NCBI GenBank assembly: GCA_015062605.1
Contig: SUUI01000012.1
Coordinates: 1-55,179, forward strand
DNA length: 55,179 nucleotides
Direction: 5' to 3'
Source: Eggerthellaceae bacterium
GTDB lineage: Bacteria > Actinomycetota > Coriobacteriia > Coriobacteriales > Eggerthellaceae
Shown here: piece by piece, positions 31,843 to 48,328 of the stretch
Layout of the letters: the number at the start of each line of letters is the position of its first letter
Numbering within the stretch: position 1 is the stretch's first letter
Program-made: the position numbers and the translations under genes
The notes under the pieces: generated by a model
Databases searched by the model: none
What the model was told of the DNA's origin: nothing
Seen by the model: only the letters and a program-made list of their open reading frames with translations

Positions 31843-32565
31843 TTAAGACGATATCACGAAATCGTAGAGCACCCAACACACGAGCAGCATGATGATGTCG
31901 AAACCTGCCGCAATGACGAGCGGGATCACGTAATAATCCATCCACGCCACTGAGCCTAGGATGGACGCAGTGGTGGCGGTCGTGCACGCATACAGCAACG
32001 GGAAGATGATGGGCACGAACAAAACGGCGAGCATGACATCGGCCGCACGGGTATGCATGGTGATAGTCGAGAGCATCGTCCCGATGCCCGCCATGCCGAT
32101 GGTTCCTAGCACAAGCGGGGCGATGATCCATAGAAACGTCGATGAGGTTTCGGAGCCGGTCATGAAGAAGAAATAGAACAGAGGAACCGCGATGACTTCA
32201 ACGACTAGCATGAACAGCATGTTCGCGACCGCCTTCGCCAAGAAGATGACCGAGCGGTCCATGGGAACGAGCAGGACGCCCTCGATGCAGCCTTGGTCCT
32301 TTTCATAGGAAAACGAACGTCCGAGGCCCAAAAGCGAGGTGAATACGATGAGCACCCAGATAAGTCCGCCGCCCATGCTGACGATGTCGATATCGCGTGC
32401 CGTCAGCGCAAGCGCAGCACCGAACACGATGATGACGAGCAGTGCGTACAAACCCATCGATGTGAGCATCTCGCGGGTACGGAACTCACGACGCAGATCC
32501 TTGCGCAGAAGGATGCAGAAATGCTGCCAGGTAGAGGGTTTCTTCGGCCGTGCGTATTGCATCAT
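31843..32565 (-). CDS. ccmB: CcmB, membrane subunit of the CcmAB transporter
   Basis: 240 residues with six membrane helices and the CcmB-type N-terminus (LLRKDLRREFRTREMLTSMGLYALLV). SFSYEKDQGCIEGVLLVPMDRS is the conserved cytoplasmic loop that contacts the ATPase. CcmAB uses ATP hydrolysis to release holo-CcmE from CcmC/D. Its ATG overlaps the ccmA stop (ATGA), so translation is coupled. A second ATG directly follows the first; either may be used. Confidence 0.92.
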   Translation of the reverse strand: MMQYARPKKPSTWQHFCILLRKDLRREFRTREMLTSMGLYALLVIIVFGAALALTARDIDIVSMGGGLIWVLIVFTSLLGLGRSFSYEKDQGCIEGVLLVPMDRSVIFLAKAVANMLFMLVVEVIAVPLFYFFFMTGSETSSTFLWIIAPLVLGTIGMAGIGTMLSTITMHTRAADVMLAVLFVPIIFPLLYACTTATTASILGSVAWMDYYVIPLVIAAGFDIIMLLVCWVLYDFVISS

Positions 32566-33329
32566 GCCACCCCCATGCCAACGACTTGGCGGTACAAGCG
32601 CTCGAATGCCACAGCATCGATCTCGTCCTTCGCCTGGAACGACACCAACTGACCTTGTGCCATGACGAGCGCATGCGAGCACATCGCGAGTCCTTTTTTG
32701 AGATCATGGCTCACCATGACGAACGTACGCCCGCCTTGTAAGTCGGAAAGCAAGCTATCGAACACATCGACCGCATACGGATCGAGACCGGAATACGGTT
32801 CATCTAGAAGCACGATGCGCGGATCGTGGATTAACGCACGGGCGATGGCAACGCGCTGCGTCATGCCACGCGAGAACGTGCGCACCGCATCATGGCGCCT
32901 GTGAGCGAGGCCGACCGCATCCAAGAGCTCATCCACACGAGCCTTCGGATCTTGCACACCGTACATCTCCGCATAGAACAAAAGGTTCTCCTCGGCCGTC
33001 AGGTCGGGATATACCATGGGCGCATGGGAGATGAGCCCTAAAAGAGAACGCGCCTGATCAGGCTCCTCCTTCGTATCGACGCCTTGAAGCACTACCTGCC
33101 CACTCGTCGGACGCGCAAGCGTCGCCAGCACGCGCAAAAGCGTGGTCTTGCCTGCACCATTAGGACCGAAAATCGAAACGAACGCACCTTCGGGAACATC
33201 GAAGGAGATATCATCGAGCGCGCGTCTTGTCCCGAAAACCTTCGAGACACCACGCACAGAAATCGCCGGGGAAGGTACGGGAGGCGTCGATGGAGGCGGC
33301 GCCGCTATGCGAGCATGCCCTGCCGTCAT
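32562..33329 (-). CDS. ccmA: CcmA, ATPase of the CcmAB transporter
   Basis: 255 residues. Walker A GPNGAGKTT, signature FSRGMTQRVAIARAL (SRGMxQR, as usual in CcmA-like ATPases), Walker B RIVLLDEPYSGLD and the H-loop VSHD are all intact. It powers release of haem-loaded CcmE. The start at 33329 overlaps the ccmF stop (ATGA); a longer frame would overlap ccmF further and was not chosen. The first 30 residues (Ala/Pro-rich) are an extension relative to typical CcmA. Confidence 0.92.
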   Translation of the reverse strand: MTAGHARIAAPPPSTPPVPSPAISVRGVSKVFGTRRALDDISFDVPEGAFVSIFGPNGAGKTTLLRVLATLARPTSGQVVLQGVDTKEEPDQARSLLGLISHAPMVYPDLTAEENLLFYAEMYGVQDPKARVDELLDAVGLAHRRHDAVRTFSRGMTQRVAIARALIHDPRIVLLDEPYSGLDPYAVDVFDSLLSDLQGGRTFVMVSHDLKKGLAMCSHALVMAQGQLVSFQAKDEIDAVAFERLYRQVVGMGVA

Positions 33330-35452
33330 GCGCTTCTTCGTCTCCCGAAACACGCGAACGCCGTACCGATCATCAGCATCGCAAAGCCTATCCACACGAG
33401 ATTGATCAGGGGGTTTATACGCACATCAAGCGAGAACCATCCTGCTTGGTTCACTCCCTGATAGACCACGAACAAATCCTCTTCCGGGAAACCTAGAACC
33501 GCGGCATTGAGCTTGCGTTGCTGCGTTGCGACATTGACTTGCACCGATGGGCTCACCTGGCCGACCTTCGTGCCATCGCGGAACACGTCGAAAGTGACCT
33601 CATACACGATGGTGTTCGATGCTTCGGAATCATCGATGATGCGGTCGGAAGCATAATCAAGCGTATATTCCTGCACTGTAAACGGCGTGCTCTGATGTGT
33701 TTCTGCATCGATTTGCAGATACCCCGTCTTCTCGTAGACATACATGGATGAACCGACAAGGCCCACCAGCAAGACCGCCATGGCGATATGCGCGAATCCA
33801 CCACCGATTGCCGCCGGACGCTTCTTTTGCAAGCGGATGTTGCGCACGAACATGAACAGCGCATTGAAGAAGAGCAGGCTCGCCACGAGGATGCCGACAA
33901 TCGCAAGCGCATGATAGTAGACAGAGGGACCTGCCTCAAACAGGGTCATCGCGTTCGAACCTCCGTCCGCGATGACCGCATCATATGCGGGTTTTAAGTT
34001 CGTCGCCCACCATGCGATGAGCGAGATGGCCAACACCGCGGCGCAGATGGCAGGCACTTTTGCCTGGCGCAAGAATGCATCCCGATCGGTCATTCCCCAC
34101 GAAAGCAACGGGCAGACCGCCAAGATGAATAGGTAGATGATGCCGAGAGGCCTTGCTATTGCCTCGTAGGCTGTAGCGCTAAGCGACTCGCCGCCAAACG
34201 GCAAGAAACTCGGCAATGCAGAACTTACGGTCATGTAAGTGAGCAACACGACGAACACCATCATGACAACATTGTTGAAGTAGTACGCCGCATCCTTGCT
34301 GACCATGCTCTCGATGTCCTCGGATTCCTTATCTGTTGGACCGAAGGATGTCTTGCGGATGATGAGACCGGCGATCGGGCAGATAAGGCTTACGGCGATA
34401 AGACCGCCGAACAGGGCAAGGGAGACCGGATCACCTGCGAACGCATGCACCGATTGCACGATGCCCGACCGCGTGATGAAGGTCGCGACGATGACGAACG
34501 TGAACGCAAGGCATGCGCACAGAACCGCCCAACGCTTGAACTGACCACGCTGGCGATACACCGTAAACGTATGCACGAGCGCAACGCACACCAGCCATGA
34601 GAGCAAGCTCGCGTTCTCGACGGGATCCCATCCCCAATAGCCACCCCAGCCCAACACGACGTAGGCCCAAACGGCGCCAAGTCCGATGCCAGCTCCTAAG
34701 AAGAGCCAGCTCGCGAGGACGAAGCGCGTCGTCCGCTCAACCCATAGCTTAGATGGATCGTTCACCACGAGTGCAGCCATCCCGTAAGCGAAGGGCACCG
34801 TAAGCCCAGCATAGCCTATGAAGAGCAACGGCGGATGAATAGCCATCGCCCAATGCTCGAGCAACTGGTTCATAGAGTAGAGCGAGGCAGCAGCGGTAAG
34901 CGAGCCATCGGCGTTGAAGAAGTTATCCGGCGTCGGTGTGAACGGCATGTTGTCGGCAGCGAACAAGAGCAGCGCACAGAATATGGCGATGACGATCTGC
35001 ACGATGGCCATGGCGATGGCATCGAGTGCGCGGGCACGTGCCGCAACGCCATTTTCAGAGGCAGCATTCGCGTCTTCGCCGTCTTCCCGATCTTTCGTTT
35101 TGCTCCAACGCGCCAGAATCAGAACGTTGAAAAGTGAGATCAAGAACACCCAGAACAGAAGGGAGCCCGCACGCCCCGCCCACAACCCGGCAAGCTTGTA
35201 CAGCCATGCGAATCCATCAGTGGAAAGCGAACGTTCCTCGAGAACGTAGAGGATGGACGTATCGCCCGTCATAAAAGCCACGACGAGGACGCAGCACGCT
35301 GCAAGAAGAGCGAAAAACGTCACTACCACGCCAAGCGTCCCCCAACGGGTGAGCACCTCTTTGTGCATCGGATGGGCTAGCGCAAACGCCGCAACCGATG
35401 CAACGGACGCAATGAACGCAATTACGAGGAGTACGAATCCCGATATCGCCAT
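33326..35452 (-). CDS. ccmF: CcmF, haem lyase subunit of cytochrome c maturation
   Basis: 708 residues with about 14-15 membrane helices. The tryptophan-rich WGGYWGWDPVENASLLSW signature and the HPPLLFIGYAG segment are diagnostic. CcmF takes haem from CcmE and attaches it to CxxCH motifs. GGAGG, which overlaps the end of ccmE, serves the ATG at 35452. The C-terminal 110 residues form an extracytoplasmic domain ending in one helix, as in other CcmF. Since no ccmH or ccmG is seen, apocytochrome handling must be done by CcmF alone or by genes elsewhere. Confidence 0.95.
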   Translation of the reverse strand: MAISGFVLLVIAFIASVASVAAFALAHPMHKEVLTRWGTLGVVVTFFALLAACCVLVVAFMTGDTSILYVLEERSLSTDGFAWLYKLAGLWAGRAGSLLFWVFLISLFNVLILARWSKTKDREDGEDANAASENGVAARARALDAIAMAIVQIVIAIFCALLLFAADNMPFTPTPDNFFNADGSLTAAASLYSMNQLLEHWAMAIHPPLLFIGYAGLTVPFAYGMAALVVNDPSKLWVERTTRFVLASWLFLGAGIGLGAVWAYVVLGWGGYWGWDPVENASLLSWLVCVALVHTFTVYRQRGQFKRWAVLCACLAFTFVIVATFITRSGIVQSVHAFAGDPVSLALFGGLIAVSLICPIAGLIIRKTSFGPTDKESEDIESMVSKDAAYYFNNVVMMVFVVLLTYMTVSSALPSFLPFGGESLSATAYEAIARPLGIIYLFILAVCPLLSWGMTDRDAFLRQAKVPAICAAVLAISLIAWWATNLKPAYDAVIADGGSNAMTLFEAGPSVYYHALAIVGILVASLLFFNALFMFVRNIRLQKKRPAAIGGGFAHIAMAVLLVGLVGSSMYVYEKTGYLQIDAETHQSTPFTVQEYTLDYASDRIIDDSEASNTIVYEVTFDVFRDGTKVGQVSPSVQVNVATQQRKLNAAVLGFPEEDLFVVYQGVNQAGWFSLDVRINPLINLVWIGFAMLMIGTAFACFGRRRSA

Positions 35453-35455
35453 GGG

Positions 35456-36124
35456 CTATGCCTCCAGCGCGACGACCGTTGCCGCAAACGATCCGTTCGC
35501 GGAAAGCGAACCGGTCAGCACGACCTCGGAGCCGTCTGCAATCTCATTGGCAAGGGCATCTTGGAACATAATGCGCAATTCTTGGCCGCTCTCTTGGTCC
35601 TGCACGATGAAGCGCTGATCGGCATCGACCGTGCCGATGGAACCGGTTTTAACGATGCCATGCACCTTCACAGGCTTATCGATGACCGCATCGCCATAGC
35701 CGAGCAAATCGGCAATGGAAAGGGATCCGTCAGCGGATTCATACTTGGAAGGGCACTTCGTGACGAGCTCTGAGCATACGAGCACACCCGATGCATCCTT
35801 CTTGCCCGTACAGATAGCCGTCACCTCGTTGCCGAAAGTCGCCGAAACACCGCCGTCATAGCGGACGTGCAGCGTGCTTGTAGCCGCAGGGTCGGCCGCG
35901 GAATCGTAGATATCGAAGGTAAGCGTGCTGTTGCCGATTTCGAAAGAATTATCGACGACATTACCCGTGACTTGGATCTTGGTGTCGGATGCGATGGTAC
36001 GTGCCTCGGCAACCGAAACCGTCTTCGCAGCAGACGATCCGCCGACCACGGCCAACACGATGACAGCGACGATGACAATGATGCCCGTCACCACGATCAT
36101 CCGACGCTTCGTCTTGGTGTTCAT
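35456..36124 (-). CDS. ccmE: CcmE-like haem chaperone, CxxxY type, with duplicated OB-like domain
   Basis: 222 residues; ordinary CcmE has 130-160. One N-terminal membrane helix (10-28) and a first OB-like domain (about 35-130) ending in TKCPSKYES. Here Cys124-x3-Tyr128 replaces the usual His-x3-Tyr haem handle, the variant known from Ccm systems that lack CcmH. A second OB-like stretch (about 143-222: VKVHGIVKTGSIGTVD, FIVQD, VVLTGSLSANGSFAA) repeats the fold without a haem handle. GGAAGG precedes ATG 36124. First gene of ccmEFABCD. Confidence 0.85.
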   Translation of the reverse strand: MNTKTKRRMIVVTGIIVIVAVIVLAVVGGSSAAKTVSVAEARTIASDTKIQVTGNVVDNSFEIGNSTLTFDIYDSAADPAATSTLHVRYDGGVSATFGNEVTAICTGKKDASGVLVCSELVTKCPSKYESADGSLSIADLLGYGDAVIDKPVKVHGIVKTGSIGTVDADQRFIVQDQESGQELRIMFQDALANEIADGSEVVLTGSLSANGSFAATVVALEA

Positions 36125-36291
36125 GTTCACCTTCCAAAAGCCTCGTGCACGATCATACGCGCACAAATCATGTTCCTAATCGTCATGGTAAAGAGTAGCA
36201 GAAAGAGCAGCTGACACGTGCGAGGCACCATTCATATTTCCAAAGATATGGTTGGATTGCAGCGAAAATCGCTATGCGCGTAAAGGGGCGC

Positions 36292-36603
36292 CTATTCCTC
36301 TAAAGCGCGTGTGGCAACTTTCAGCATACGGATAGCCAAGTCGTGATAATCAACGAGCACATCGTAGGGCAGGTCCTCATTAAGTACACCACGCGAAAGG
36401 CCTTCCGGCAACTGTCCCGCCTCATCGGCATCGCGATCATCGAACCACTCCTCGCTGCCATAGTAACGGGCAAGCTTTGTGATGGCATCCTGCGCCTCCT
36501 CGAAATCATCGAGATCCTGCGCAAAGCCTAAGATGGCAACCGCCGCTTTGTCGAATGCCTCTTCCATCTCCGCAATCCGCGCGACGCGCTCGGCAACTTC
36601 CAT
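36292..36603 (-). CDS. DUF4298 family protein
   Basis: 103 residues, matching the small DUF4298 family in length and pattern: VARIAEMEEAFDKAAVAI, ITKLARYYGSEEWFDDRDADEAG and LPEGLSRGVLNEDLPYDVL. Predicted helical, cytoplasmic, function unknown. GAGG lies about nine bases before ATG 36603; the 38-codon longer frame has no site. Single gene between the ccm operon and an AT-rich gap. Confidence 0.8.
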   Translation of the reverse strand: MEVAERVARIAEMEEAFDKAAVAILGFAQDLDDFEEAQDAITKLARYYGSEEWFDDRDADEAGQLPEGLSRGVLNEDLPYDVLVDYHDLAIRMLKVATRALEE

Positions 36604-36954
36604 GGGTCTGCACCTCTTCTTTTGTTCTGATCTAATGTAATCGATTATAGCAAACGGCAAGGAGCCCATCCGTTGTACGCAATACCCTTCGATCTTTTCG
36701 AAGCGTCTCGAAGACATGAGACAAACAAGCGATATCCTGTATTAAATACTTATTCATGAATAATTTAATAAAGAAAAATTATGCCTATTTATCAGGTAAA
36801 ATTATGTAGTTTATATATTTCAAGCAAAAGAAAGTGAATAATTCTCTTGCATTTCCATGCAAACTCGTTTAAGGTCTTTTGCCGGCATTGAAATGATGTA
36901 AGACACGTATGCGCTGCGCATATGCGCTTCGCCAAGAAGAAAAGGATGATCACC
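36604..36954. other. AT-rich gap with three inverted repeats, promoter region of the HTH gene
   Basis: About 350 bp without a supported gene; 36721-36850 is strikingly AT-rich against GC-rich surroundings. Inverted repeats: TTATTCATGAATAA (36750-36763, perfect); AAGCAAAAGAA / TTCTCTTGC with a 9-base gap (about 36821-36850, one mismatch); and TTGCAT-TTCC-ATGCAA (36847-36862, perfect). They precede a MarR-like regulator gene and may be its operators. No clear sigma-70 pair was found. Confidence 0.5.
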
Positions 36955-37443
36955 ATGACAGACTCCATCACCACTTTCAAGCAACTGAAGAAGGCCTCGA
37001 AGCTCGCTTGCCTCACCATGCACAAGAACGGCCCGAAGAGCTTCCGCCGCGGCGTCGGTTCGCTGCTCCGTGCACTGGATACGGAAAAGGCCGTAACGCG
37101 CGATGAGCTCATCGAGCATTTCGGGTTCAGCCGCAAGCATCTTAAAAACATCGTGAAGAAGGCCGAGAAGAGCGGTTTGGCCACGATCATCGAGGCGGAT
37201 GAGGGCTATGCCGTTATGCTGACAGAAGAAGGCGCCGAAGTGCTCGCCAAACGCGAAGAGGCGAATGCGGCAGCCGCCGATAAGCTGTTCGCTGCGCTTT
37301 CCGATGAGGAGCAGGAACAACTGGGCGCACTGCTCGACAAGGTCATCGTCGCTGCGAAGGACGAGGATGTCACCATCTTCGGCAAAGATTACAAGGATAA
37401 GAAAGTCAAGCGCTGCGGCCATCATAAGCCTTGCTGCAAATAA
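36955..37443 (+). CDS. MarR-like winged-helix regulator with Cys/His tail
   Basis: 162 residues. The recognition-helix region is VTRDELIEHFGFSRKHLKNIVKKAEKSGLATII, with a wing (EADEGYAVMLTEEG), then a long helical dimerisation segment (LFAALSDEEQEQLGALLDKVI), a layout typical of MarR-like proteins. The chain ends in KRCGHHKPCCK: three Cys and two His within nine residues, suggesting metal or redox sensing. AAGGA is eight bases before ATG 36955. The promoter region holds several inverted repeats, so autoregulation is plausible. Target genes unknown. Confidence 0.75.
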   Translation: MTDSITTFKQLKKASKLACLTMHKNGPKSFRRGVGSLLRALDTEKAVTRDELIEHFGFSRKHLKNIVKKAEKSGLATIIEADEGYAVMLTEEGAEVLAKREEANAAAADKLFAALSDEEQEQLGALLDKVIVAAKDEDVTIFGKDYKDKKVKRCGHHKPCCK

Positions 37444-37464
37444 CGCGCTTCATCACATGAGCCC

Positions 37465-37492
37465 AAGCGGGGCGCCTTCGGGCGCCCCGCTT
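37465..37492 (+). terminator. Terminator after the HTH gene
   Basis: Perfect 12-bp stem AAGCGGGGCGCC / GGCGCCCCGCTT with loop TTCG, 22 bp past the stop. The T-run is weak (CATTGTG). Confidence 0.75.
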
Positions 37493-37581
37493 CATTGTGC
37501 CACCGAAAAGCTTTCTGATTGCGCACTTTGCGTGATGGTTGCCCGAATACCGTCCTGTTCATGTACGCGACCTTGCCAGAT

Positions 37582-37590
37582 TGGTATAGT
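37582..37590 (+). promoter_or_regulatory. Extended -10 promoter candidate for the YidC-sulfatase operon
   Basis: TGGTATAGT, an extended -10 element (TG-n-TATAGT), with TGTACG 17 bases upstream as a weak -35. About 40 bases before the start codon. Confidence 0.45.
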
Positions 37591-37629
37591 GGAATCCAAT
37601 CCAATTGCAAAGGCACGATAGTAAATCGA

Positions 37630-40455
37630 ATGATCATTCTGTCAAGCATCTATCAGGTCCTCATCGGCCCACTCGAACTGTTCTTCGAGGTCGTTTACTC
37701 TTTCGCCTATCAGCTGATAGGCGATCCTGGTTTTGCCATCGTGTTTTTGAGCTTGGCGATGAATTTCCTCGTTCTGCCTCTGTACCGGCGTGCCGACGCC
37801 ATGCAAGAGGCCGAACGGGATCGGTCCATGCGCATGAAGCCCGCCGTCGATCATATCAAGAAGACATTTACAGGCGACGAGCGCTTCATGATGCTCCAGA
37901 CCTACTACCGCCAAAATAACTACAAGCAAACCGATGCCCTCAAAGGCTCGATCTCGCTTCTCCTGGAAATCCCGTTCTTCATCGCAGCCTATTACTACCT
38001 ATCCGAGCTTGCGCTCTTAAACGGCGTTTCGTTCGGACCCATTCCCGATTTAGGTGCGCCTGATGCGTTATTGACCATCGGCAGCATAACGATCAATGTG
38101 CTCCCTTTGCTCATGACTGCGATCAATGTGGTATCCGCCGCCGTATACATGAAGGGCTTTCCGCTCTCGAGCAAGATCCAGATGTACGGTATCGCAGCCA
38201 TCTTCTTGGTGCTTTTGTACAACTCCCCCGCTGGATTGGTGTTTTACTGGACACTGAACAACATCTTCTCTTTAATTAAGAATCTGTTTTACAAGCTTGC
38301 GCATCCTGGGAAGGTGCTGGCAGTCATGGCATCGATTGCAGGCATCGCGCTTCTCGTCCTCGCGTTCGCGCTTCCTGCTCTTTCGGTGGAGACACAGGTG
38401 TTCTTCATCGTATGCGCCGTGCTTTTGCAAATCCCCATTTCAGTGAGTCTGTTAAGGCGCGGCTCCAAGCTCCCGAACATCCGTGAGGCCACGAAAAAGG
38501 ATGATCGGGCATTCTTCTTGGGCTGTTTGTTCTTGGCGCTGCTTACGGGCGTGCTCATCCCGGTAACGGTCATCCAAGCTTCGCCAAGCGAATTCGTGAA
38601 TCTCGCCAACTACAAGACGCCGCTTAGGTTCGTGCTCGACTCCGCGCTGATCGCCTTCGGCACCTTCGTTGTATGGTTCGGCATCTTCTACCGCCTCGCC
38701 TCCCCGAAGGGCCGAAGCATTTTCGGCGCGATCCTGTTGGCTGCATGCGGCATCTTCTTGATCGACTATCTGTTCTTCGGGACGGATTACGGCAATCTCT
38801 CTCCGTTGCTGGAATTCGATGTGCCACCTACGGTGACGCTTGAGGCTGGGCTTACCAACCTCGCCGCGATCGTAGCGCTCACGGTGATACTGTTGCTCAT
38901 CTGGCACAAATGGAGAGATGCTGCAGGCGTTGCTTACGCCTGCATGTGCGTTGCCTTAGCGGCCGTATCCATCTTCGGCATGGTACAGATTAACACCACA
39001 CTCGACAATGCGCTCGGTTCCTCTTTAAGATGGAACAACGGCAGACCGCATTTCACGCTAAGCCGCAGCGGGCAAAACGTCGTCGTCATCATGATGGATA
39101 GGGCGGTCTCGGATTACGTCCCTTACATCGTCGAGGAGAATCCGAAGATCGGACAGCAGCTCGACGGGTTCACGTACTACCCCAATGCTATGTCGTACGG
39201 CTCTCTGACGATCACCGGATCGCCTGGTTTGTACGGAGGCTATGAATACATTCCCGAAAACATGAACGAACGCGACGATGTCCTCCTCGTCGACAAGCAA
39301 AACGAAGCGCTTCGCGTCATGCCGCTTTTATTCGTCGAGGCCGGCTATGACGTCACGGTTTTCGACCCTACCTATGCAGGATATACGTGGACTCCCGATT
39401 TGAGCATCTATAGCGACACGCCTGAGATCTCCGCATATGTCACCATGGCAGAGGAATTCGAGACTGATGAGTTCGGCCCGATTGTCGAGTCGGACCTCGG
39501 AGAAGCCCTGCAATCCCGCAACTTCTTCTGCTACAGCATCTTCAAAGTCGCTCCGCAGTTCGTCCATCCCGCACTGTACGATGAAGGACGCTATCACACT
39601 ACCATGATGCTCACCTCAGACCCGTCGGTTACAGTGACGGTCGATGAGTCAGCAGGTCGGCAAATCATCACAAACGCCTCAGTGGGCCAAGGATTGGACA
39701 ACACCTTTTTGAAGGCATATGCGATATTGCAGAATCTCCCCGAGATGACCGAGATCGCCGATGCGGGTCCGGGCGGGTTCTTGATGATGTCGAACGATAC
39801 GACGCATTCCCCCACGATCCTTAAGGAACCCGAATACATCCCCGCCTTTACGGTCGACAATACCGAGTACGACCTTGAGCACGAAACCCGCACAGATGCG
39901 GATGGCAACATCCTCGACCTCTCGAACGATTCCGACCAGCCCGTCATGTCAAAGCACATCCATTACGAGATCAACACCGCTGCATGGCGTGAACTGGGAA
40001 ACTGGTTCGATTATCTCCGCGAGCAAGGCGTTTACGATAATACGCGCATCATCATCGTTTCGGATCACGGACAGCACCTTTCGCTCCACGACGACCTGAT
40101 CATCGAACGGATGGGCACAGATGGAGTCGAGCACTGGGATACCCAGATCTTCAATTGCCTGCTCATGGTCAAGGATTTCAACGCGACGGGCTTCACGGTC
40201 GATGGACAGTTCATGACCAACGCAGACACGCCGCTTTTAGCGCTCGCGGACATCATCAGCGATCCAGTGAACCCATCGACGGGAACACCTCTCGATAACG
40301 CGGAGAAATATGCCCTTGAGCATCACGTCCAATGGCCTAGTGAATGGTCGACAGATGTGAATAACGGAACAACGTTTTTGCCAGGCCATTGGTTCTCTCT
40401 TTCAGGAGATGATGTCTTAGATGGCGATAGATGGCGTTACCTTGGATACTACTAG
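37630..40455 (+). CDS. YidC/Oxa1-like domain fused to a sulfatase-like (alkaline phosphatase superfamily) domain
   Basis: 941 residues in three parts. Residues about 1-215 are a YidC/Oxa1 insertase core: FLVLPLYRRADAMQEAERDR, the charged cytoplasmic hairpin, LLLEIPFFIAAYYYLSELA, and NSPAGLVFYWTLNNIFSLIKN. Residues about 220-465 add further membrane helices. From about 480 an extracytoplasmic hydrolase domain follows: NVVVIMMDRAVSDY (metal-binding Asp), SLTITGSPGLYGG near 525 (candidate Thr nucleophile) and IIIVSDHGQHL near 810. This layout recalls LtaS-type phosphoglycerol transferases. No strong ribosome-binding site precedes ATG 37630. The next gene, 18 bp on, is a CDP-glycerol glycerophosphotransferase homologue, suggesting work on a phosphoglycerol envelope polymer. 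Confidence 0.85.
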   Translation: MIILSSIYQVLIGPLELFFEVVYSFAYQLIGDPGFAIVFLSLAMNFLVLPLYRRADAMQEAERDRSMRMKPAVDHIKKTFTGDERFMMLQTYYRQNNYKQTDALKGSISLLLEIPFFIAAYYYLSELALLNGVSFGPIPDLGAPDALLTIGSITINVLPLLMTAINVVSAAVYMKGFPLSSKIQMYGIAAIFLVLLYNSPAGLVFYWTLNNIFSLIKNLFYKLAHPGKVLAVMASIAGIALLVLAFALPALSVETQVFFIVCAVLLQIPISVSLLRRGSKLPNIREATKKDDRAFFLGCLFLALLTGVLIPVTVIQASPSEFVNLANYKTPLRFVLDSALIAFGTFVVWFGIFYRLASPKGRSIFGAILLAACGIFLIDYLFFGTDYGNLSPLLEFDVPPTVTLEAGLTNLAAIVALTVILLLIWHKWRDAAGVAYACMCVALAAVSIFGMVQINTTLDNALGSSLRWNNGRPHFTLSRSGQNVVVIMMDRAVSDYVPYIVEENPKIGQQLDGFTYYPNAMSYGSLTITGSPGLYGGYEYIPENMNERDDVLLVDKQNEALRVMPLLFVEAGYDVTVFDPTYAGYTWTPDLSIYSDTPEISAYVTMAEEFETDEFGPIVESDLGEALQSRNFFCYSIFKVAPQFVHPALYDEGRYHTTMMLTSDPSVTVTVDESAGRQIITNASVGQGLDNTFLKAYAILQNLPEMTEIADAGPGGFLMMSNDTTHSPTILKEPEYIPAFTVDNTEYDLEHETRTDADGNILDLSNDSDQPVMSKHIHYEINTAAWRELGNWFDYLREQGVYDNTRIIIVSDHGQHLSLHDDLIIERMGTDGVEHWDTQIFNCLLMVKDFNATGFTVDGQFMTNADTPLLALADIISDPVNPSTGTPLDNAEKYALEHHVQWPSEWSTDVNNGTTFLPGHWFSLSGDDVLDGDRWRYLGYY

Positions 40456-40473
40456 GCACCGATAAGGGGTTTT

Positions 40474-41820
40474 ATGCACGATATGCTTCTATATATCGAT
40501 CCTGGCACGGGGAGCATGCTGTTCACGATCCTTATCGGCGTCATCAGCGCGGGTATCTATGGGCTCAGGAAGGCCCTTGTGAAGGCGAGATTCATCCTCG
40601 GTGGCGGCAAGCAGGAGAAATCCGGCGTGGAGAAGGAACGTATCGCGATCTTCTCCGATAGCAAACGCTATTGGAACGTGTTCGAACCAATCTGCGACGA
40701 ACTCGAACGCCGTGAGGTCCCTGCGAGCTATCTGACGGCATCGCCAGACGATCCTGCACTCAATAAGACCTACTCGCATGTGAAATGCGCGTTCATCGGC
40801 GAAGGCAACAAGGCATTCGCTTATCTGAATATGCTCAAATCCAACATCGTGCTCTCTACGACCCCAGGACTCGATGTGTATCAATGGAAGCGCTCACGCG
40901 ATGTCTCTTGGTACGCGCATGTGTTCCACGCCCTCGGAGATGCCACCATGTACCGCATGTTCGGTTTGGACTACTACGATGCGGTATTGCTCGCGGGACC
41001 GTGCCAGACAGAACAGATACGGGCGCTCGAGAATCTGCGCAAGCTCCCTGAAAAAGAGCTCGTCACGGTGGGACTCCCCCATTTGGATGCCATGCAAGAA
41101 CGCCTGCAGAGCGCTCCTGCGCTCCCTCCTCATCCGACCACGGTCCTCCTTGCGCCTTCCTGGGGAGCGAGCGCTATATTGAGCCGCTATGGCGGACGCA
41201 TCATCGAAAGCCTGCTTAAGACGGGCTATCACGTCATCGTCCGACCGCATCCGCAATCGTTCGAGTCCGAAAGCGACTTGATGGAGCGGCTTATGAAGGA
41301 GTTCCCCGCCTCCGATACGCTCGAGTGGAATCGCGACAACGACAACTTCGATGTACTACGCAGATCAGACATCATGATCTCCGATTTCTCGGGTGTCATC
41401 TATGATTTCGCACTCATATTCGATCGCCCGGTCATCTACACCGAACCCGCATACGACAAAGGACCTTACGACGCATGGTGGCTCGATGAGGACCTATGGA
41501 CATTCAACGTATTGCCCCATATCGGAGCGCAACTCGATATGGCCGCCCTCGACAAGCTCAAGGAGATCATCGACGATTGCCTGAACAACCCACGTTTCGA
41601 GCAAGGCCGCAAACAGGCTCGCGATGAAGGGTGGGCGCATCGTGGCGAAGCTGCGGTAAGGATCGTCGATTACCTGCTTTCCAAGGAAGCAGAACTTTTG
41701 GCGCAAACATCATCAGAGAAATCGGATGCAGCGAGCGCGCCTGACGAGGACGGCGACGAGAAGATTTTGCATGCGAAGCATGCGCCTTCCCCGAAAGGAA
41801 GCCCGGATGGAACCGACTAA
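40474..41820 (+). CDS. CDP-glycerol:polyglycerophosphate glycerophosphotransferase family (TagB/TagF-like)
   Basis: 448 residues. An N-terminal membrane segment (MLLYIDPGTGSMLFTILIG) is followed by a GT-B-like catalytic region of the CDP-glycerol glycerophosphotransferase family (PF04464). Motifs: TPGLDVYQWKRS, WYAHVFHALGD, VLLAPSWGASAIL, VIVRPHPQSFE and MISDFSGVIYDFALIFDRPVIY. The last two are the conserved donor-binding and catalytic regions. Such enzymes add glycerol phosphate to teichoic-acid-like polymers at the inner membrane face. AAGGGG precedes the ATG. Tightly follows the YidC-sulfatase gene and overlaps the GNAT gene by 14 bp. The last 40 residues are charged and disordered. Confidence 0.87.
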   Translation: MHDMLLYIDPGTGSMLFTILIGVISAGIYGLRKALVKARFILGGGKQEKSGVEKERIAIFSDSKRYWNVFEPICDELERREVPASYLTASPDDPALNKTYSHVKCAFIGEGNKAFAYLNMLKSNIVLSTTPGLDVYQWKRSRDVSWYAHVFHALGDATMYRMFGLDYYDAVLLAGPCQTEQIRALENLRKLPEKELVTVGLPHLDAMQERLQSAPALPPHPTTVLLAPSWGASAILSRYGGRIIESLLKTGYHVIVRPHPQSFESESDLMERLMKEFPASDTLEWNRDNDNFDVLRRSDIMISDFSGVIYDFALIFDRPVIYTEPAYDKGPYDAWWLDEDLWTFNVLPHIGAQLDMAALDKLKEIIDDCLNNPRFEQGRKQARDEGWAHRGEAAVRIVDYLLSKEAELLAQTSSEKSDAASAPDEDGDEKILHAKHAPSPKGSPDGTD

Positions 41821-42349
41821 TCTGAATGTGACGCTTGTCCCATTGCGTCCAGAAGATAAGGATCGATTCATCCTCGACAATCAGGAAGCGTTCAATTTCG
41901 GCGCCTTAGAGGAATTCGGGCGCCGTGACGACCGTTTCGAGGAAGATGGGCAGATCATCTCGCGAGCGACCATAGAGCAGAGCATAGATGCAGGCGATGC
42001 GTACCGCATCATGCTCGGCGAAAGAATAGTCGGTGGCGCCATCGTCAATGTAGAAGGCGACAAAGGAGAGCTGGAAATCCTGTTCGTCAGCCCGCATGTT
42101 CACAGCAAAGGCATCGGGTACGCTGCCTGGTGCGCAATCGAGAAGATGTACCCCGACGTGAAGGTCTGGGGATTGGTCACGCCGTATTTCGAGACGCGCA
42201 ACATCCATTTCTACGTCAATCGCTGCGGGTTCCACATCGTGGAGTTCTTCAACAGCCATCATCCCGACCCGAATGATCCTGATGCCTACAAGACACAGGA
42301 CGCAGATTCCCGCGACGGCATGTTCCGCTTCGAAAAGCGGATGGTTTAA
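41807..42349 (+). CDS. GNAT family N-acetyltransferase
   Basis: 180 residues. The acetyl-CoA-binding region reads LEILFVSPHVHSKGIGYAAWCAIE, and the C-terminal part has NIHFYVNRCGFHIVEF, typical for GNAT folds. The acceptor is unknown. GAAAGGAAG precedes ATG 41807, which lies inside the end of the glycerophosphotransferase gene, so the two are translationally linked; a link to envelope polymer modification is possible but not shown. A longer upstream frame lacks a site. Confidence 0.85.
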   Translation: MEPTNLNVTLVPLRPEDKDRFILDNQEAFNFGALEEFGRRDDRFEEDGQIISRATIEQSIDAGDAYRIMLGERIVGGAIVNVEGDKGELEILFVSPHVHSKGIGYAAWCAIEKMYPDVKVWGLVTPYFETRNIHFYVNRCGFHIVEFFNSHHPDPNDPDAYKTQDADSRDGMFRFEKRMV

Positions 42350-42391
42350 AGGAGCACCCCCTCAGTTCACGCCAACCCGAAAGGTGCGATC

Positions 42392-44347
42392 ATGGTTAAG
42401 CAGGCATCCCTCAAAACACGTCTCTCGTATTGGTTCGACAATTTCATGAGCCGCGGCCTGTGGGCCAAGATCGGTTTTTTGGCACTTGTCACCGTCATCT
42501 TCATCGCCATCATGGGCATCATCGCCGCAATAGCTTACGGAGATGGCGAGCAGATGCTCCCATGGGTTTGGTGGAAAACGGTCATGACATCGCTTGGCAA
42601 GAACACGCCAGGACAGAATGACGGCCCTGTCGTCTATATCGCACTCATGATCATCGCGATGATCTACGGCATGTTCTTCTCGTCTATGCTCATCGGCTTT
42701 ATCGCGGGAAGCATCCGCGATAAAGTGAACAGCCTCGCCAAGGGCACGGGCAACGTGGTGGAGTCGGACCATATCATCATCCTTGGATTCAACGAGACGA
42801 CCTACGTGTTGCTCGGTGAACTCATAGAGGCGAACCGCAATATGCAGAAAACGCAGGTCGTGGTCGTGCTTGACGAGACAAGCAAGGAGGATATGGACGA
42901 TGCCATTGCAGCGCGGTTCGGCAAGCAATCTGACCATCCGAAAACCCGGATCGTCTGCCGCAAGGGATCGATTTACGATCTTGCAAGCCTCGAGCGTTGT
43001 TCGATTGCAACATGCCGCTCCGTCATAGTCGGTGCATCAAGCGATTTCGAGACCATCAAGGCAATCATGGCTTGCGCCTATCTTCTGAATTCCGGCGAAG
43101 CTTCGCCTGATGCGTTCGCGGTTGCCGTCATCCATGAGGAAGATAGTGTCGCCGCAGCAGAAATCGCGGGACATGACGGCCGCGAAGGTGATCGTTTAGA
43201 GCTATTGCCCTTGCAGGAGATCCTTGCGCGCATCATCGTACATACCTCGCGTCAGCCAGGGCTCTCACGTGTGTTCGACGAGCTCTTCAACTTCAAGGGA
43301 AATGAGGTGTACACGATCGAGGCTGCCCATGTGCCTGCCACGTTGCATAACCGCACATTGCGTGAGATTAATCTCCAACTCAAGGACTCCATTGCAATCG
43401 GCATACTCGATGAGAACCGCGGCATCGTCCTCTCCAATCCGAACGAAGTCGTCCTCGAGGCGGGCCAGTCGCTCATCGTGGTAGCAGAAGACGATCATGA
43501 CCTTCATCTGGCCCCAAAGCCTATCGCGCCAAAGGAACTCGGCGTGAACCGAAACAGCCCATTGGCGACGATGCGCTGCCTTGTATTCGGCGGTCAGCCG
43601 ATTCTGAACGACATGCTCATCGAGTACGCACGCTATCTGCAGCCAGGATCAACGGTAACGGTTGTCACCGAAGAGGCTCGTCTGCGCCGTCCGATTCGAC
43701 ATGCAACGCAAGAAGCGCTCGATAGGGCTTCCATAACGCTGCGTATGGAAAACGTTCCTGAAATCTCCCGCGAGGAGGTGTTCGCCATGCTTGACGAAGC
43801 GCGACCCGATTCGGTCGTCGTGCTCAGCAATCATGCATCGTCGACGCCCGATGCCGAAGACGCGAAAACCATCGCACTTGTGCTCTATCTACGCGACTAT
43901 CGCGATCTTCGCGGCGCCACGTTCAGCATTACAAGCGAAATGTGCCTCGGTAAGAATCGAGAAATCGCCGCTAATACCAGTTCGGACGACTTCATCATCG
44001 GGAAGCATCTTTCGGGCTTGCTCATGGCCCAAATCGCACTCGACCGCAACGTCCGAAGCTTCTTCGAATGCCTGCTTTCACCTGAAGGCTTCGAGGTCTA
44101 CATGAAGCCAGCGCGAAATTACGTCCCGATGAATTACGACATCGATCTATTCTCTTTGGTCGATATCGTCGCCGCACGTGGAGAGATGCTCATCGGCATC
44201 CAACAGCGAAGCGGCACCGTCTTTATGGAACCTCAGATCAATCCACCGAAGTATTCGAACGGATCTATCAAGAACTACCGATTCGGGCTGGATGATCGTC
44301 TCGTGTTGCTTTCAGAGGAAGCTTACGACAAGATCGCGACCGATTAA
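42392..44347 (+). CDS. CASTOR/POLLUX-like ion channel with RCK/TrkA-N domains
   Basis: 651 residues. Two membrane helices (about 24-50 and 80-105) with a short pore-like stretch between them (MLPWVWWKTVMTSLGKN). Then SDHIIILGFNETTYVLLGELIEANR starts a Rossmann-type RCK domain, and a second RCK-like unit begins near CLVFGGQPILNDMLIEYA (about 393). This is the plan of the CASTOR/POLLUX/SYM8 channels (calcium/potassium-permeable nuclear envelope channels in plants) and their bacterial relatives, where ligand binding to RCK rings gates the pore. Ion and ligand here are unknown. AAAGGTG precedes the ATG. Downstream of the GNAT gene by 42 bp; its stop overlaps the convergent galT stop. Confidence 0.82.
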   Translation: MVKQASLKTRLSYWFDNFMSRGLWAKIGFLALVTVIFIAIMGIIAAIAYGDGEQMLPWVWWKTVMTSLGKNTPGQNDGPVVYIALMIIAMIYGMFFSSMLIGFIAGSIRDKVNSLAKGTGNVVESDHIIILGFNETTYVLLGELIEANRNMQKTQVVVVLDETSKEDMDDAIAARFGKQSDHPKTRIVCRKGSIYDLASLERCSIATCRSVIVGASSDFETIKAIMACAYLLNSGEASPDAFAVAVIHEEDSVAAAEIAGHDGREGDRLELLPLQEILARIIVHTSRQPGLSRVFDELFNFKGNEVYTIEAAHVPATLHNRTLREINLQLKDSIAIGILDENRGIVLSNPNEVVLEAGQSLIVVAEDDHDLHLAPKPIAPKELGVNRNSPLATMRCLVFGGQPILNDMLIEYARYLQPGSTVTVVTEEARLRRPIRHATQEALDRASITLRMENVPEISREEVFAMLDEARPDSVVVLSNHASSTPDAEDAKTIALVLYLRDYRDLRGATFSITSEMCLGKNREIAANTSSDDFIIGKHLSGLLMAQIALDRNVRSFFECLLSPEGFEVYMKPARNYVPMNYDIDLFSLVDIVAARGEMLIGIQQRSGTVFMEPQINPPKYSNGSIKNYRFGLDDRLVLLSEEAYDKIATD

Positions 44348-45444
44348 CGCGAAGCGAATGTGCCAAGAAACACATCGAGCGCGGCTTGGCCTTCGCCGTC
44401 CCACGCAAAGACACCACAGCAGCAAAGCGCCTCAGCGAAGCGCTCGCCAATCTCCGTACGTACGGATGCGTCATCGACCGCCATCTCGCGCGTCAGACGT
44501 GGTGGAAGTATCGCACGGCCCATCACTTCGATCAGTCCGATGTTCTCCTTCTTGATATGGTGCAGATGGTCATGCACATGGAAAGCACCCAGCGGATGCT
44601 TCTCGCTTGTGATGTTGCAGCGAAGAGCCAAGTCAAGCGTGTAGGTCGCATCCTTCTTGCGCAGCATCGGCGTAATGGTGTTATGCCGTATCGCCTGCTT
44701 TCCCTCGTACGTCACGGCGATGATCCCAAGCTCTTCGTTGGTATAAGCACGCCATGCATCAAGGATGTGGCATGCGGAATCGATAAGCGCCTCACGGTCG
44801 GTTGTTTCCAGCCTAAGCACCGTAAGCGGCCATTTCACAACACCCGCATTCACGTGGGGAAACGCGCTCATCGTGAATGTGCGATCAATCGGTGCCTTAT
44901 GGAGCGGGAATGTATGGCGACCGCCTTGGAAGTGATCATGTGAAAGGATCGAACCGCCTACGATAGGCAGATCGGCATTGCTTCCGATGAAGTATTGCGG
45001 GAATTGGTCAACGAAGTCGCAAAGCCCTACGAAAGCCGCGCGGTCGATGTGCATGGGGCGATGCTCCCAACTCATCGCTATGCAGTGCTCATTGAAATAT
45101 GCATAGGGGCTATACCACAATGCCCATGGCTCATCGCAAAGCTGGATGTTTTTCGCATAACCCGAGTCGATATCGCCTTGCGTGACGCAAAGGTCGCATA
45201 GCTTGTCCGGGTCCTTCTGCTTTGCCGCGGCGGCGATTGCCGCGGGGTCTTTCTCGGGCTTGCTTAGGTTGATGGTAACTTGGATATCGCCCCAGACAGT
45301 CGGCGTAACCCACTCGATATTGCGAGCGATGTCTTCAACCTTCACGAATCCTTTCGTGATGGAATCGCGATAGAACGCATCGGTGTCGATACGTTCTATG
45401 TCACTTGACGTGCGGATGCAATCGTTGTTATCGCATGCGCTCAT
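44344..45444 (-). CDS. galT: Galactose-1-phosphate uridylyltransferase (class II, short)
   Basis: 366 residues. GGSILSHDHFQGGRHTFPL contains the active-site His-x-His of the family, and FHVHDHLHHIKKENIGLIEVMG is the C-terminal conserved block. It exchanges UMP between UDP-glucose and galactose-1-phosphate (Leloir pathway). Gram-positive class II GalT proteins usually have about 490-510 residues; the N-terminal 120 or so are missing, yet the start overlaps the galK stop (ATGA), so the short form seems genuine. Last gene of the galactoside operon; its stop overlaps the convergent channel gene by 4 bp. Confidence 0.9.
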   Translation of the reverse strand: MSACDNNDCIRTSSDIERIDTDAFYRDSITKGFVKVEDIARNIEWVTPTVWGDIQVTINLSKPEKDPAAIAAAAKQKDPDKLCDLCVTQGDIDSGYAKNIQLCDEPWALWYSPYAYFNEHCIAMSWEHRPMHIDRAAFVGLCDFVDQFPQYFIGSNADLPIVGGSILSHDHFQGGRHTFPLHKAPIDRTFTMSAFPHVNAGVVKWPLTVLRLETTDREALIDSACHILDAWRAYTNEELGIIAVTYEGKQAIRHNTITPMLRKKDATYTLDLALRCNITSEKHPLGAFHVHDHLHHIKKENIGLIEVMGRAILPPRLTREMAVDDASVRTEIGERFAEALCCCGVFAWDGEGQAALDVFLGTFASR

Positions 45445-46652
45445 TGGGAGATCTTAAACCTCAGACAAGATCCTTCACCCAATAGCGCGTTGACGTTCTT
45501 GGCAACATCGTCGTAACGGTCTTTATGCACGAAGGCCAGAATCGTTCCTCCGAAACCACCGCCATGGATGCGGCAAGCCCCATCCATGCCCAATGCGCTT
45601 TGCACTGCAGCAAGGGCGATCATCGCCGGCTGCATGTGGCGTTCGGTGGTGCTCACGTTCTGTAAGAACGCTGCTGAAGATGCTCCGGAAAGACGCGTTG
45701 CCGTAAGGAACGCCTCCATATCCCCCGCCTCAAGCGCTGCGACACGTGCATCGACCAATTTGACCTCGTTGTAGAAATGCATCGCACGCAGCACCGGCTG
45801 ATCGCCGAGAACGCGGCGTGCATCGCTGAATCCTTCTAAGAAACGCTGCTCATCAAGTTCGCCTAAGCGGGACTCGCCGAAGAACTTCGCGACCGCATTC
45901 ATGTCGGAAACGACCAGCGAATACTCATCCGGATACAGGCTATGGTCGCAGTGGGTATCGATAAGGCAGATATAGTAGCCGAATTCTGAGAAGTCGACGT
46001 CGAGCCTTCTGACCATCTTCCCTTCATCGAGTGCTGCATACGAGAAATCGTGCTCTACAAGACCGCGATATGCGATGGCGCGCTGATCCATGGCTCCACA
46101 CGGTTTCCCGAAGAATTCCTGCTCAGCCATAAATGCCGCTTTGACGCGGACCTCGGGATCTAGGGTCTCGCCACCGAACAGCTTCGCGATGGTCGATACC
46201 AGCGCCAATTCGTACGCAGCCGAGGAAGACAGACCACGGCCGACAGGAATCGTGCTCGTCACATCGGCATCGAAGCCGCCCACACAGATCCCCTGCGCTT
46301 TCAGTGCGGCAACAACGCCGCGGACGATGGCAGCCGATGTGAAACGCTCCTCAGGATGCGGTTCGACATCGTTCGCATCGATGATCGTGTCTGGGAAACC
46401 AGGGCTTGCGATATGGATGGTCGATGTATCGTTCGGAGCAGCATGGATCGTGATGAAACGGTCGATCGTAGCCGTCAGCGCACGGCCGCCTTGGTGATCG
46501 ACATGATTGCCCGCCACCTCGATGCGGCCGGGCATCCGTACGAACACGCTGCGGGAGCTCTCCTGCACGCGCGTATCCGGGCGTGCATCCTTCGCTTTGC
46601 CTACCGCTGCGCCCTTCTTGATCTTGATTACCTTTCCAGTCGCTTTGCTCAT
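45441..46652 (-). CDS. galK: Galactokinase
   Basis: 403 residues, GHMP kinase. The galactokinase signature appears as MPGRIEVAGNHVDHQGGRAL, the ATP-binding loop as PVGRGLSSSAAYELA, and the third motif near the C-terminus as CRIHGGGFGGTILAF. It phosphorylates galactose at C1. The signature His/Asp in GNHVDH fits galactose binding, although GEHTDY is more usual. Start and stop overlap with the alpha-galactosidase and galT genes, respectively (ATGA both times). N-terminal 35 residues are a basic extension. Confidence 0.94.
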   Translation of the reverse strand: MSKATGKVIKIKKGAAVGKAKDARPDTRVQESSRSVFVRMPGRIEVAGNHVDHQGGRALTATIDRFITIHAAPNDTSTIHIASPGFPDTIIDANDVEPHPEERFTSAAIVRGVVAALKAQGICVGGFDADVTSTIPVGRGLSSSAAYELALVSTIAKLFGGETLDPEVRVKAAFMAEQEFFGKPCGAMDQRAIAYRGLVEHDFSYAALDEGKMVRRLDVDFSEFGYYICLIDTHCDHSLYPDEYSLVVSDMNAVAKFFGESRLGELDEQRFLEGFSDARRVLGDQPVLRAMHFYNEVKLVDARVAALEAGDMEAFLTATRLSGASSAAFLQNVSTTERHMQPAMIALAAVQSALGMDGACRIHGGGFGGTILAFVHKDRYDDVAKNVNALLGEGSCLRFKISQ

Positions 46653-48328
46653 GTTCGTTTCCTCTCGATGATGGTCTTCGCCATACGTGCGAAACGTTTA
46701 CGTTGCTCAGGCGTCCAAGCGCCCATATCGTCAGATGTCATCAGCACGCTGCCGCAACGCGCAGCGGTCGTATGCATCTCCTTACGTTGGTCTTTGGATA
46801 GCTTAACATCTTCACGCAAGAATACGACGTCCGGATCTGATCCGAATGCGCGTCCGTCAAGCGGAGAACGCGCCCGCGCGCATAAAAGCGAGTTCTTGGT
46901 GCTCACGCGCTCGCGGTGCAACAGACGCATCGGGGCCTTATCGTTCCAATCAAGCCCGACATCGCAACCGACACGGCAGTACTCCACTTTGCCGAACACG
47001 CTTGCCAACGGCACACCGCATGCGAGTAAAAGCGCATCTGGCGCCGCATCGCGCACTAGATCGATCGCGTCCGCCATGAGCTGTCCACGGTTAAGCCCGC
47101 CATGCGGAATCATGCAGGCGGCGTACAAGAAGTCGAGTTTGAGCAGACCGAATCCCCACTCGTCAACCGCGGTGTGGATCGATCGGCGTACGTAGTCGCG
47201 AACCTCGAGGTTGAGCGAATCAAGCGCGAAGGCGCCGTTCCAGTGACTGCCCGTCATAACCGTCTCGCCAGACGCATCACGCAACAGCCAATCGGGATGC
47301 TCCAAGAATAGCCGTGAGTCCTTCGAGCACACGAAAGGCGCCAGCCACAATCCCGGCATGAAGCCGATTTTTCGGACCGCCTTCGCAACAGGCTGCATGC
47401 CATCAGGGAAACGGTTTTCGTGTGGGAGGAGCCAGTCACCAACCGTGCACCATCCATCATCGACCTGAACGCACCATGTCACAGCTGAATCCGCAGCGAT
47501 TCTGTCCGCATCCGCAATCGCAGCAACTTGCGTCGGGTCGGGAGAGACGCTCACCGATCCACATAGCTCTGCAAGCTCTGGCGAGGAAATCGCCTCGAAC
47601 ACGCCTGCCAAATCCCCTACGATCTTGCCTGCATCGATATCGTCGTAATGACGATACCAGCTGGAATAGCCTACAAGCGGCTTTATGGGACGTGGCGTAA
47701 TACCCGATAGTTCGAACCAGCGATCGTATGCGCGATCGCGCACATCCGCTCCCTGCATCGTGATGACCGCGAAATGTCCGAGGATCGCACGCTCTCCTGC
47801 TTCAAGCGGGCGTGCAGGCATCTCGGGTATAAGCGTTACCGTCTTTTTCTGGGGATCGGTGCGAATGAGCGTGAATCCGCGGCTCTCATCTAAAGACCCC
47901 ACAAGCGTAAGCTCATCATATCGGTTGAACACAGCATAGGTGAATCCATGCAGATAGCCCGGCCTGTTTATATATTCGACGAAACGGTAATCGCCGCCTC
48001 CATCGAGCACGTATCGGTCGATGATCGCCTTCGGCGTACGTGAAAGCCCCGGCATCGAAGAGAGCGATGAGTACTCGCGCGTATCGGTCCAGCTCTGATA
48101 GCCGTTCATGAGTATGCCCTCGCGCGAGAAATCGCGCGAGAATATGATTGCAAGCTCGCTTACCTCGATACGGTTTATCGCCTCGATGGCAACTGCAAGC
48201 TCCTCGCCCGTCCATTCGACGGAAAGCGCGAAGTCTTGGCATCCGAACGAGGAGAATCCCCCTCGCTGGATCGTTGTTTTCAGCCCATCATCGGTTCGAT
48301 AGGCGACAGTTAAGCTCTGCGGCTTCAT
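46649..48328 (-). CDS. Alpha-galactosidase, GH36 family, cytoplasmic
   Basis: 559 residues. The GH36 catalytic barrel is visible: GYSSWYRHYDDID, WCVQVDDGW, PGLWLAPFVCSKDS, GLLKLDFLYAACMI with the nucleophile Asp, and CRVGCDVGLDW with the acid/base Asp. It releases terminal alpha-galactose from melibiose, raffinose or similar sugars. No signal peptide, so the substrate must be imported, fitting the GPH symporter gene in the same operon. Shorter than the 700-residue bacterial GH36 enzymes. The ribosome-binding site is weak (AGGTAG). It feeds galactose to galK and galT, whose genes overlap or follow. Confidence 0.91.
   Translation of the reverse strand: MKPQSLTVAYRTDDGLKTTIQRGGFSSFGCQDFALSVEWTGEELAVAIEAINRIEVSELAIIFSRDFSREGILMNGYQSWTDTREYSSLSSMPGLSRTPKAIIDRYVLDGGGDYRFVEYINRPGYLHGFTYAVFNRYDELTLVGSLDESRGFTLIRTDPQKKTVTLIPEMPARPLEAGERAILGHFAVITMQGADVRDRAYDRWFELSGITPRPIKPLVGYSSWYRHYDDIDAGKIVGDLAGVFEAISSPELAELCGSVSVSPDPTQVAAIADADRIAADSAVTWCVQVDDGWCTVGDWLLPHENRFPDGMQPVAKAVRKIGFMPGLWLAPFVCSKDSRLFLEHPDWLLRDASGETVMTGSHWNGAFALDSLNLEVRDYVRRSIHTAVDEWGFGLLKLDFLYAACMIPHGGLNRGQLMADAIDLVRDAAPDALLLACGVPLASVFGKVEYCRVGCDVGLDWNDKAPMRLLHRERVSTKNSLLCARARSPLDGRAFGSDPDVVFLREDVKLSKDQRKEMHTTAARCGSVLMTSDDMGAWTPEQRKRFARMAKTIIERKRT

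Follow-up and report, generated by a model that had tools for sequence, protein, structure and literature searches.

The 55,179-nucleotide stretch of Eggerthellaceae DNA analyzed here (the window; contig 29 of the 1.70 Mb, 98% complete genome of a rumen bacterium) encodes a protein in which a YidC-derived membrane module (Y) is fused to an enzyme domain of the alkaline-phosphatase (AP) superfamily, followed by the gene of a TagF-like transferase (G). YidC/Oxa1 proteins are universal, and their recognized job is protein insertion. Our analysis suggests that evolution has co-opted this ancient factor as part of a machine for the synthesis or decoration of cell-surface polymers, and we tentatively posit, with somewhat less than even confidence, that the fusion and G form one such transmembrane enzyme machine. 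The evidence, drawn from sequence comparison and structure models, consists of the three modules and their co-occurrence, the orders in which they are fused, their predicted sidedness, the AP-domain residues, the loss of the YidC groove arginine and the conservation of the YidC module. We found no published description of a YidC-AP/G system in open-licence PubMed Central text; the papers retrieved, one on LcpA and one on the MCR-1 interactome, were unrelated.

The fusion is a single open frame on the forward strand (ATG at 37630, stop at 40455) of 941 amino acids (aa). An alternative TTG start at 37519 would give 978 aa, but a near-identical relative (locus L040) is also 941 aa long. Pfam matches PF02096 (60KD_IMP/YidC) to residues 34-221 (75.8 bits, cut-off 35) and PF00884 (Sulfatase) to residues 482-817 (34.9 bits, cut-off 25), and the motifs MMDRA, TITGSP and SDHG are all present. 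Structures were compared with AlphaFold models as whole chains. The model of the fusion (pLDDT 87.7, pTM 0.79) has a YidC fold at residues 1-222 (Z 18.1 with a root-mean-square deviation of 2.8 over 207 residues against 3wo7; Z 18.1 against Escherichia coli YidC, 6al2) and an AP-superfamily fold at residues 479-941 (Z 21.5 against 2w8s, 18.7 against MCR-1 and 18.0 against LtaS). The initial annotation, which was made from the sequence alone, is thus borne out in describing a YidC-type core and an AP-superfamily domain in one 941-residue frame, 18 bp ahead of a TagB/TagF-like gene. An assembly join or frameshift is ruled out by two metagenome-assembled genomes (MAGs) that carry the same arrangement at 94-95% identity, as well as by tens of full-length fusions at 32-51% identity. 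MAGs labelled Eggerthellaceae, from goat and other hosts, are close to the window genome.

G belongs to the Glyphos_transf (TagF/TagB) family according to its PF04464 match (45.6 bits, cut-off 22.1) and its GT-B fold; its AlphaFold model (pLDDT 87.6) finds the TagF 3l7j family as best matches in the Protein Data Bank. The N-terminal membrane motif of G, YIDPGTGSMLF, is near-invariant, with a mean identity of 0.96 vs 0.67 for the GT-B domain across 44 G proteins. This YIDPGTGS-type membrane-helix motif (M), like the YVDPS variant described below, received no Pfam name in the scans made.

Six short peptide patterns, run against genome contigs in a single scan, matched at 77 loci. These yielded 92 distinct fusion frames of 834-1055 aa, and filtering at 80% identity leaves at least 79 different full-length fusions, counting that of the window. 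Their hosts span at least four phyla, namely Bacillota, Spirochaetota, Chloroflexota and, via Eggerthellaceae, Actinomycetota; they are mainly rumen and gut Clostridia, together with Erysipelotrichia, Treponema, Chloroflexota and Eggerthellaceae. Treponema cells possess an outer membrane and lack teichoic acid; phosphonate genes lie near one of its fusions (L109). The relatives are for the most part MAGs, and stops or frameshifts interrupt some fusions (L102, L108, L112, L113); an isolate, Khoudiadiopia massiliensis (Peptoniphilaceae), also carries the fusion. The window YidC domain nests next to Mogibacterium inside Bacillota (support 100/81), which suggests lateral transfer. G adjoins the YidC-AP gene on the same strand in 52 of 69 runs uncut by a contig end, a count that includes G copies lying under longer antisense frames, and 24 of 60 fusion-G junctions overlap. 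In L060 (7164-18422) and L063 (4331-15880) four tandem YidC-AP fusions stand beside one G gene, as if a single inner enzyme served several outer transferases.

The YidC module is strongly altered and yet tightly constrained. It has the PF02096 match and the fold of the YidC/Oxa1/Alb3 family, as the initial annotation had claimed for the membrane part, while its score falls short of the NCBIfam yidC_oxa1_cterm cut-off (TIGR03592; 79.0 vs 84.3 bits) and the groove arginine of the family is replaced by Asn45. This arginine, in the first transmembrane helix (TM1), is present in all 25 housekeeping YidC copies of Coriobacteriia and in none of the 91 readable YidC-AP fusions, where the position is held by Asn (83), Ser (4), Thr (2), Gly (1) or Gln (1); Lys takes its place in those YidC-G sequences that were read. 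The C1 cytosolic hairpin is rewritten to a conserved sequence of its own (residues 76-98, KKTFxGDERFMMLQTYYRQNxY), and the polar residues S41, T163, N166, S169, Q184, N210 and N211 of the TM helices are nearly invariant. Mean column identity is 0.69 for the YidC module, 0.55 for the AP domain and 0.41 for the linker; housekeeping YidC reaches 0.68 in a much narrower set of organisms. That the module is thus the best-conserved part of the fusion is our chief reason for assigning it a specific role instead of that of an anchor. In a tree of YidC domains the fusions form one group (100/100) on a very long stem; the stems of the YidC-AP and YidC-G groups measure 5.2 and 5.5 changes per site, compared with a median end branch of 0.22. 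An ordinary, separate yidC lies in the same genome just downstream of an rnpA-like gene, where the initial annotation had suggested looking for it, and upstream of an rsmG-like gene, which rules out the fusion as the sole YidC of the cell.

All PF04464 and PF00884 matches of the genome are confined to the window locus and to a second locus, L004 on contig 15, which lies in a region of glycan genes (galactofuranosyltransferase-like, LicD and glycosyltransferase). There the domains are swapped, and a 644-aa YidC-G fusion stands between two AP proteins with a YVDPS motif (L004 5722-7830) related to the YIDPGTGS of G. YidC-G fusions occur in 16 of 149 Coriobacteriia, this genome included, at 58-67% identity to the query, and an AP domain is encoded directly downstream of, or fused to, YidC-G in 15 of these 16; genome G168 has no AP downstream. 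Genome G128 (L139 1-1562) has an AP gene after YidC-G that is split into two frames. In genomes G186 and G087/G098 (two families) a single protein of 1357-1377 aa runs from YidC through G, a YxDP helix and a TM segment to AP. In the tree, fused and unfused forms are intermixed, and the triple fusion therefore probably arose twice. Each of the architectures read in detail has a single YxDP helix, carried by G or by AP depending on which of them is separate from YidC, or placed between the two. As judged from gene and domain order, the swapped locus and the triple fusions tie YidC, G and AP into one functional unit; the paired-gene system of the initial annotation holds for the fusion and G, and is larger than was claimed.

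Residues D490, T527, H726, D812 and H813 of the AP domain are invariant across the aligned fusions. Position 527 is Thr in every one of them, as in LtaS and EptA, and not the Cys or Ser of formylglycine sulfatases; Thr527 is the probable nucleophile, given its spacing to D490 and the family membership. Hydropathy and the positive-inside pattern predict that the AP domain faces outside, and together with the modelled fold, the metal ligands and the Thr this marks it as a putative LtaS/EptA-like transferase of the outer face, with phosphatidylglycerol as a possible donor. The window fusion, the unfused AP protein and the triple fusion all have seven TMs ahead of AP, and G comes after the YidC end that lies in the cytosol; the predicted sides are thus consistent across all architectures read in detail.

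With respect to the substrate, family searches of the window genome found no TagD, its PF01467 matches being only CoaD, NadD and a cytidylyltransferase-phosphoenolpyruvate (PEP) mutase fusion, the mutase part of which passes TIGR02320. TagD-made CDP-glycerol is hence an unlikely donor for G and was discarded as a candidate for this genome. TagD scores above cut-off in 8 of 37 fusion-bearing genomes, the other 29 having none above it, and the substrate may therefore differ between lineages. The recurrent neighbors elsewhere make choline-like, amino-alcohol or phosphonate head groups activated by cytidine di- or monophosphate (CDP/CMP). Among 75 loci of relatives, a PEP mutase lies near 10, a LicC-like gene near 17 and a nucleotidyltransferase-CobD-like gene near 12; for PEP mutase within the fetched flanks about 0.5 would be expected at one gene per 2.5-Mb genome, an expectation that assumes independent loci, of which L088, L097 and L099 are close relatives. 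Because TagD is absent and head-group genes recur, the currency of the machine is likely a CDP- or CMP-activated head group. The 601-aa neighbors in L094, L060, L100 and L081 were dropped as PntC-AEPT candidates, since they combine a nucleotidyltransferase with a CobD/HisC-like pyridoxal-phosphate domain that scores below the TIGR01140 cut-off; a true 2-aminoethylphosphonate transaminase is present in L083.

Elsewhere in the window genome, contig 13 (L129 6008-11333) holds LicD, the cytidylyltransferase-PEP mutase fusion, a phosphonopyruvate-decarboxylase-like gene and a nucleotidyltransferase-iron alcohol dehydrogenase fusion, a cassette whose content suggests CMP-activated hydroxyethylphosphonate. 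Contig 27 (L130 6593-8362) encodes a 589-aa protein with winged-helix regulator, LicC-like nucleotidyltransferase and choline-kinase-like domains, and three-domain proteins of this type also adjoin several fusion loci.

The closest functional parallel is multi-component transmembrane glycosylation, in which CsbB/GtlA is the inner transferase, GtcA (GtrA) the flippase and YfhO/GtlB the outer GT-C enzyme (PMC8035078). The system described here would follow the same logic, with a transferase inside, a translocator in the membrane and a second transferase outside that acts on a polymer of the cell surface, and all three parts are likewise encoded together. It differs in that the inner enzyme is a TagF-like GT-B, the membrane part derives from YidC and not from GtrA or Wzx, an AP phospho-transferase takes the place of the outer GT-C, and fusion of the parts is common. 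In reconstituted vesicles, YidC and other insertases of the Oxa1 superfamily have been shown to scramble lipids, so far as a side activity in vitro (PMC10491306). On the strength of these two precedents we propose a relay. G, held at the cytosolic face by its YIDPGTGS helix, would form or charge a lipid-linked intermediate, drawing on a phosphate or phosphonate compound activated by CDP or CMP. The YidC-derived module, having lost the groove Arg that serves in protein insertion, would bind the polar intermediate in the groove and help it to cross or sit in the membrane, and the outer AP domain would transfer the phospho-group via its Thr nucleophile to the final polymer. Joint action of the modules in one reaction sequence, lipid movement by the YidC module and the nature of the substrate are inferred. 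The stronger version, in which this YidC/Oxa1 branch is a dedicated flippase or carrier of phospho- or phosphono-linked lipid intermediates at the center of the Y-G-AP system, a transport not known from the superfamily, appears to us possible but rather doubtful.

Each component resembles a known family and departs from it. Like LtaS, EptA-MCR and PbgA, the fusion places an outer AP fold behind N-terminal TMs with a conserved Thr at the likely nucleophile position, but it has 12 TMs, its first module is YidC-derived and identity in structure alignments is about 14%. The YidC module shares fold, PF02096 and TM order with YidC/Oxa1/Alb3 and is set apart by the groove residue, the hairpin, the enzyme fusions and the long stems. 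G has the GT-B fold and the RPHP and SDFSGVIFDF motifs of TagF/TarL/Cps proteins, though only about 16% identity to TagF in structure alignment, a YIDPGTGS anchor and mostly no TagD in the genome. PEP mutase, phosphonopyruvate decarboxylase, LicC-like cytidylyltransferases and LicD are shared with the Pnt/Lic pathways (PMC6697681), and genes of this type lie on other contigs of the window genome and beside many relatives' loci. The Y-G-AP machine itself stands outside these pathways as described; the text of PMC6697681 mentions neither YidC nor sulfatase nor glycerophosphotransferase.

Several observations weigh against the proposed machine and its relay. Head-group genes are not beside the window pair and occur in the vicinity of only about 34 of 75 loci, and LicD, with two copies in the genome, could itself use CDP/CMP donors. 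Lipid movement is extrapolated from relatives that still carry the groove Arg. An adjacent G is absent in 17 internal runs, and the Treponema loci L107, L109 and L115 have no G in the flanking DNA fetched. The YidC module might instead be a passive scaffold that docks G to AP and couples or matches the inner and outer steps without handling lipid, a reading we also regard as possible but somewhat unlikely. Fusions in several orders fit docking, and the conserved cytosolic hairpin could be a G-binding surface; yet the module is better conserved than the catalytic domain, and the near-invariant polar residues within the membrane would be needless in a bare scaffold. Of the two roles offered by the initial annotation for the YidC part, active handling of lipid or polymer thus gains support, while a scaffold alone becomes less likely.

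Quite improbable, in our view, is a retained YidC function as insertase or chaperone for the fusion's own AP and linker part or for partner proteins. The clear fold and family match speak for it, as does the fact that E. coli YidC can do without its groove Arg, but the complete absence of this Arg from the readable YidC-AP fusions, the rewritten C1 region and the long stems do not fit, the recurrent partners of the module are two specific enzymes and not a variety of clients, and the genome already has an ordinary YidC. The phosphoglycerol polymer of the initial annotation was not borne out either: a classical poly(glycerol-phosphate) route, with G using CDP-glycerol and AP using phosphatidylglycerol, is improbable despite the PF04464 match and TagF-like fold of G, the resemblance of AP to LtaS and the minority of fusion genomes with TagD. 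TagD is missing here and from most such genomes, the neighbors make other head groups, and the NCBIfam TagF/TarL/LtaS models score far below cut-off at the window pair (11.7 bits against 970 for the fusion and the LtaS equivalog). Should the proposed machine exist, it would show that dedicated handlers of lipids or polymers can arise from insertase folds, and the system would supply candidates for the missing transferases of phosphonate or phosphocholine decoration in Coriobacteriia, rumen Clostridia and Treponema. The swapped and triple fusions open the idea to direct testing on single polypeptides.

Table 1. Features of the fusion and G genes and their surroundings in the window.
Feature	Position	Strand	Basis
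GC-rich hairpin between upstream regulator-like gene and fusion	37467..37490	+	read by eye
YidC-derived module, aa 1-222: amphipathic helix, 5 TM, cytosolic hairpin	37630..38295	+	PF02096, fold match, tree
Asn45 codon, groove-Arg position of housekeeping YidC	37762..37764	+	alignment
Linker, seven further TM helices, aa 226-466	38305..39027	+	model helices; positive-inside pattern
Extracytoplasmic AP-superfamily (sulfatase/LtaS/EptA-like) domain, aa 479-941, including stop (predicted side)	39064..40455	+	PF00884, fold match, invariant residues
Thr527 codon, probable nucleophile	39208..39210	+	position
Junction, 18 bp, with ribosome-binding-like AAGGGG before second ATG	40456..40473	+	
G, membrane-anchored TagF-like GT-B transferase, 448 aa	40474..41820	+	PF04464, model
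M, N-terminal membrane-helix motif LYIDPGTGSMLF of G	40489..40524	+	conservation

The hairpin ahead of the fusion is a probable transcription boundary; it was not flagged by the terminator scan, and the promoter/terminator scan performed at chance level. An Rfam search of window positions 36000-43000 gave no match. Upstream, on the other strand (32562-36166), cytochrome c maturation-like genes were recognized by eye (ABC transporter, CcmF-like, CcmE-like). Downstream of G, positions 42392-44347 encode a 651-aa protein with RCK domains and a Castor/Pollux-type domain (PF06241), which is known from ion channels of plant symbiosis. It is followed in this Eggerthellaceae genome by genes that by eye resemble those for galactose-1-phosphate uridylyltransferase, galactokinase and alpha-galactosidase (44344-48328).

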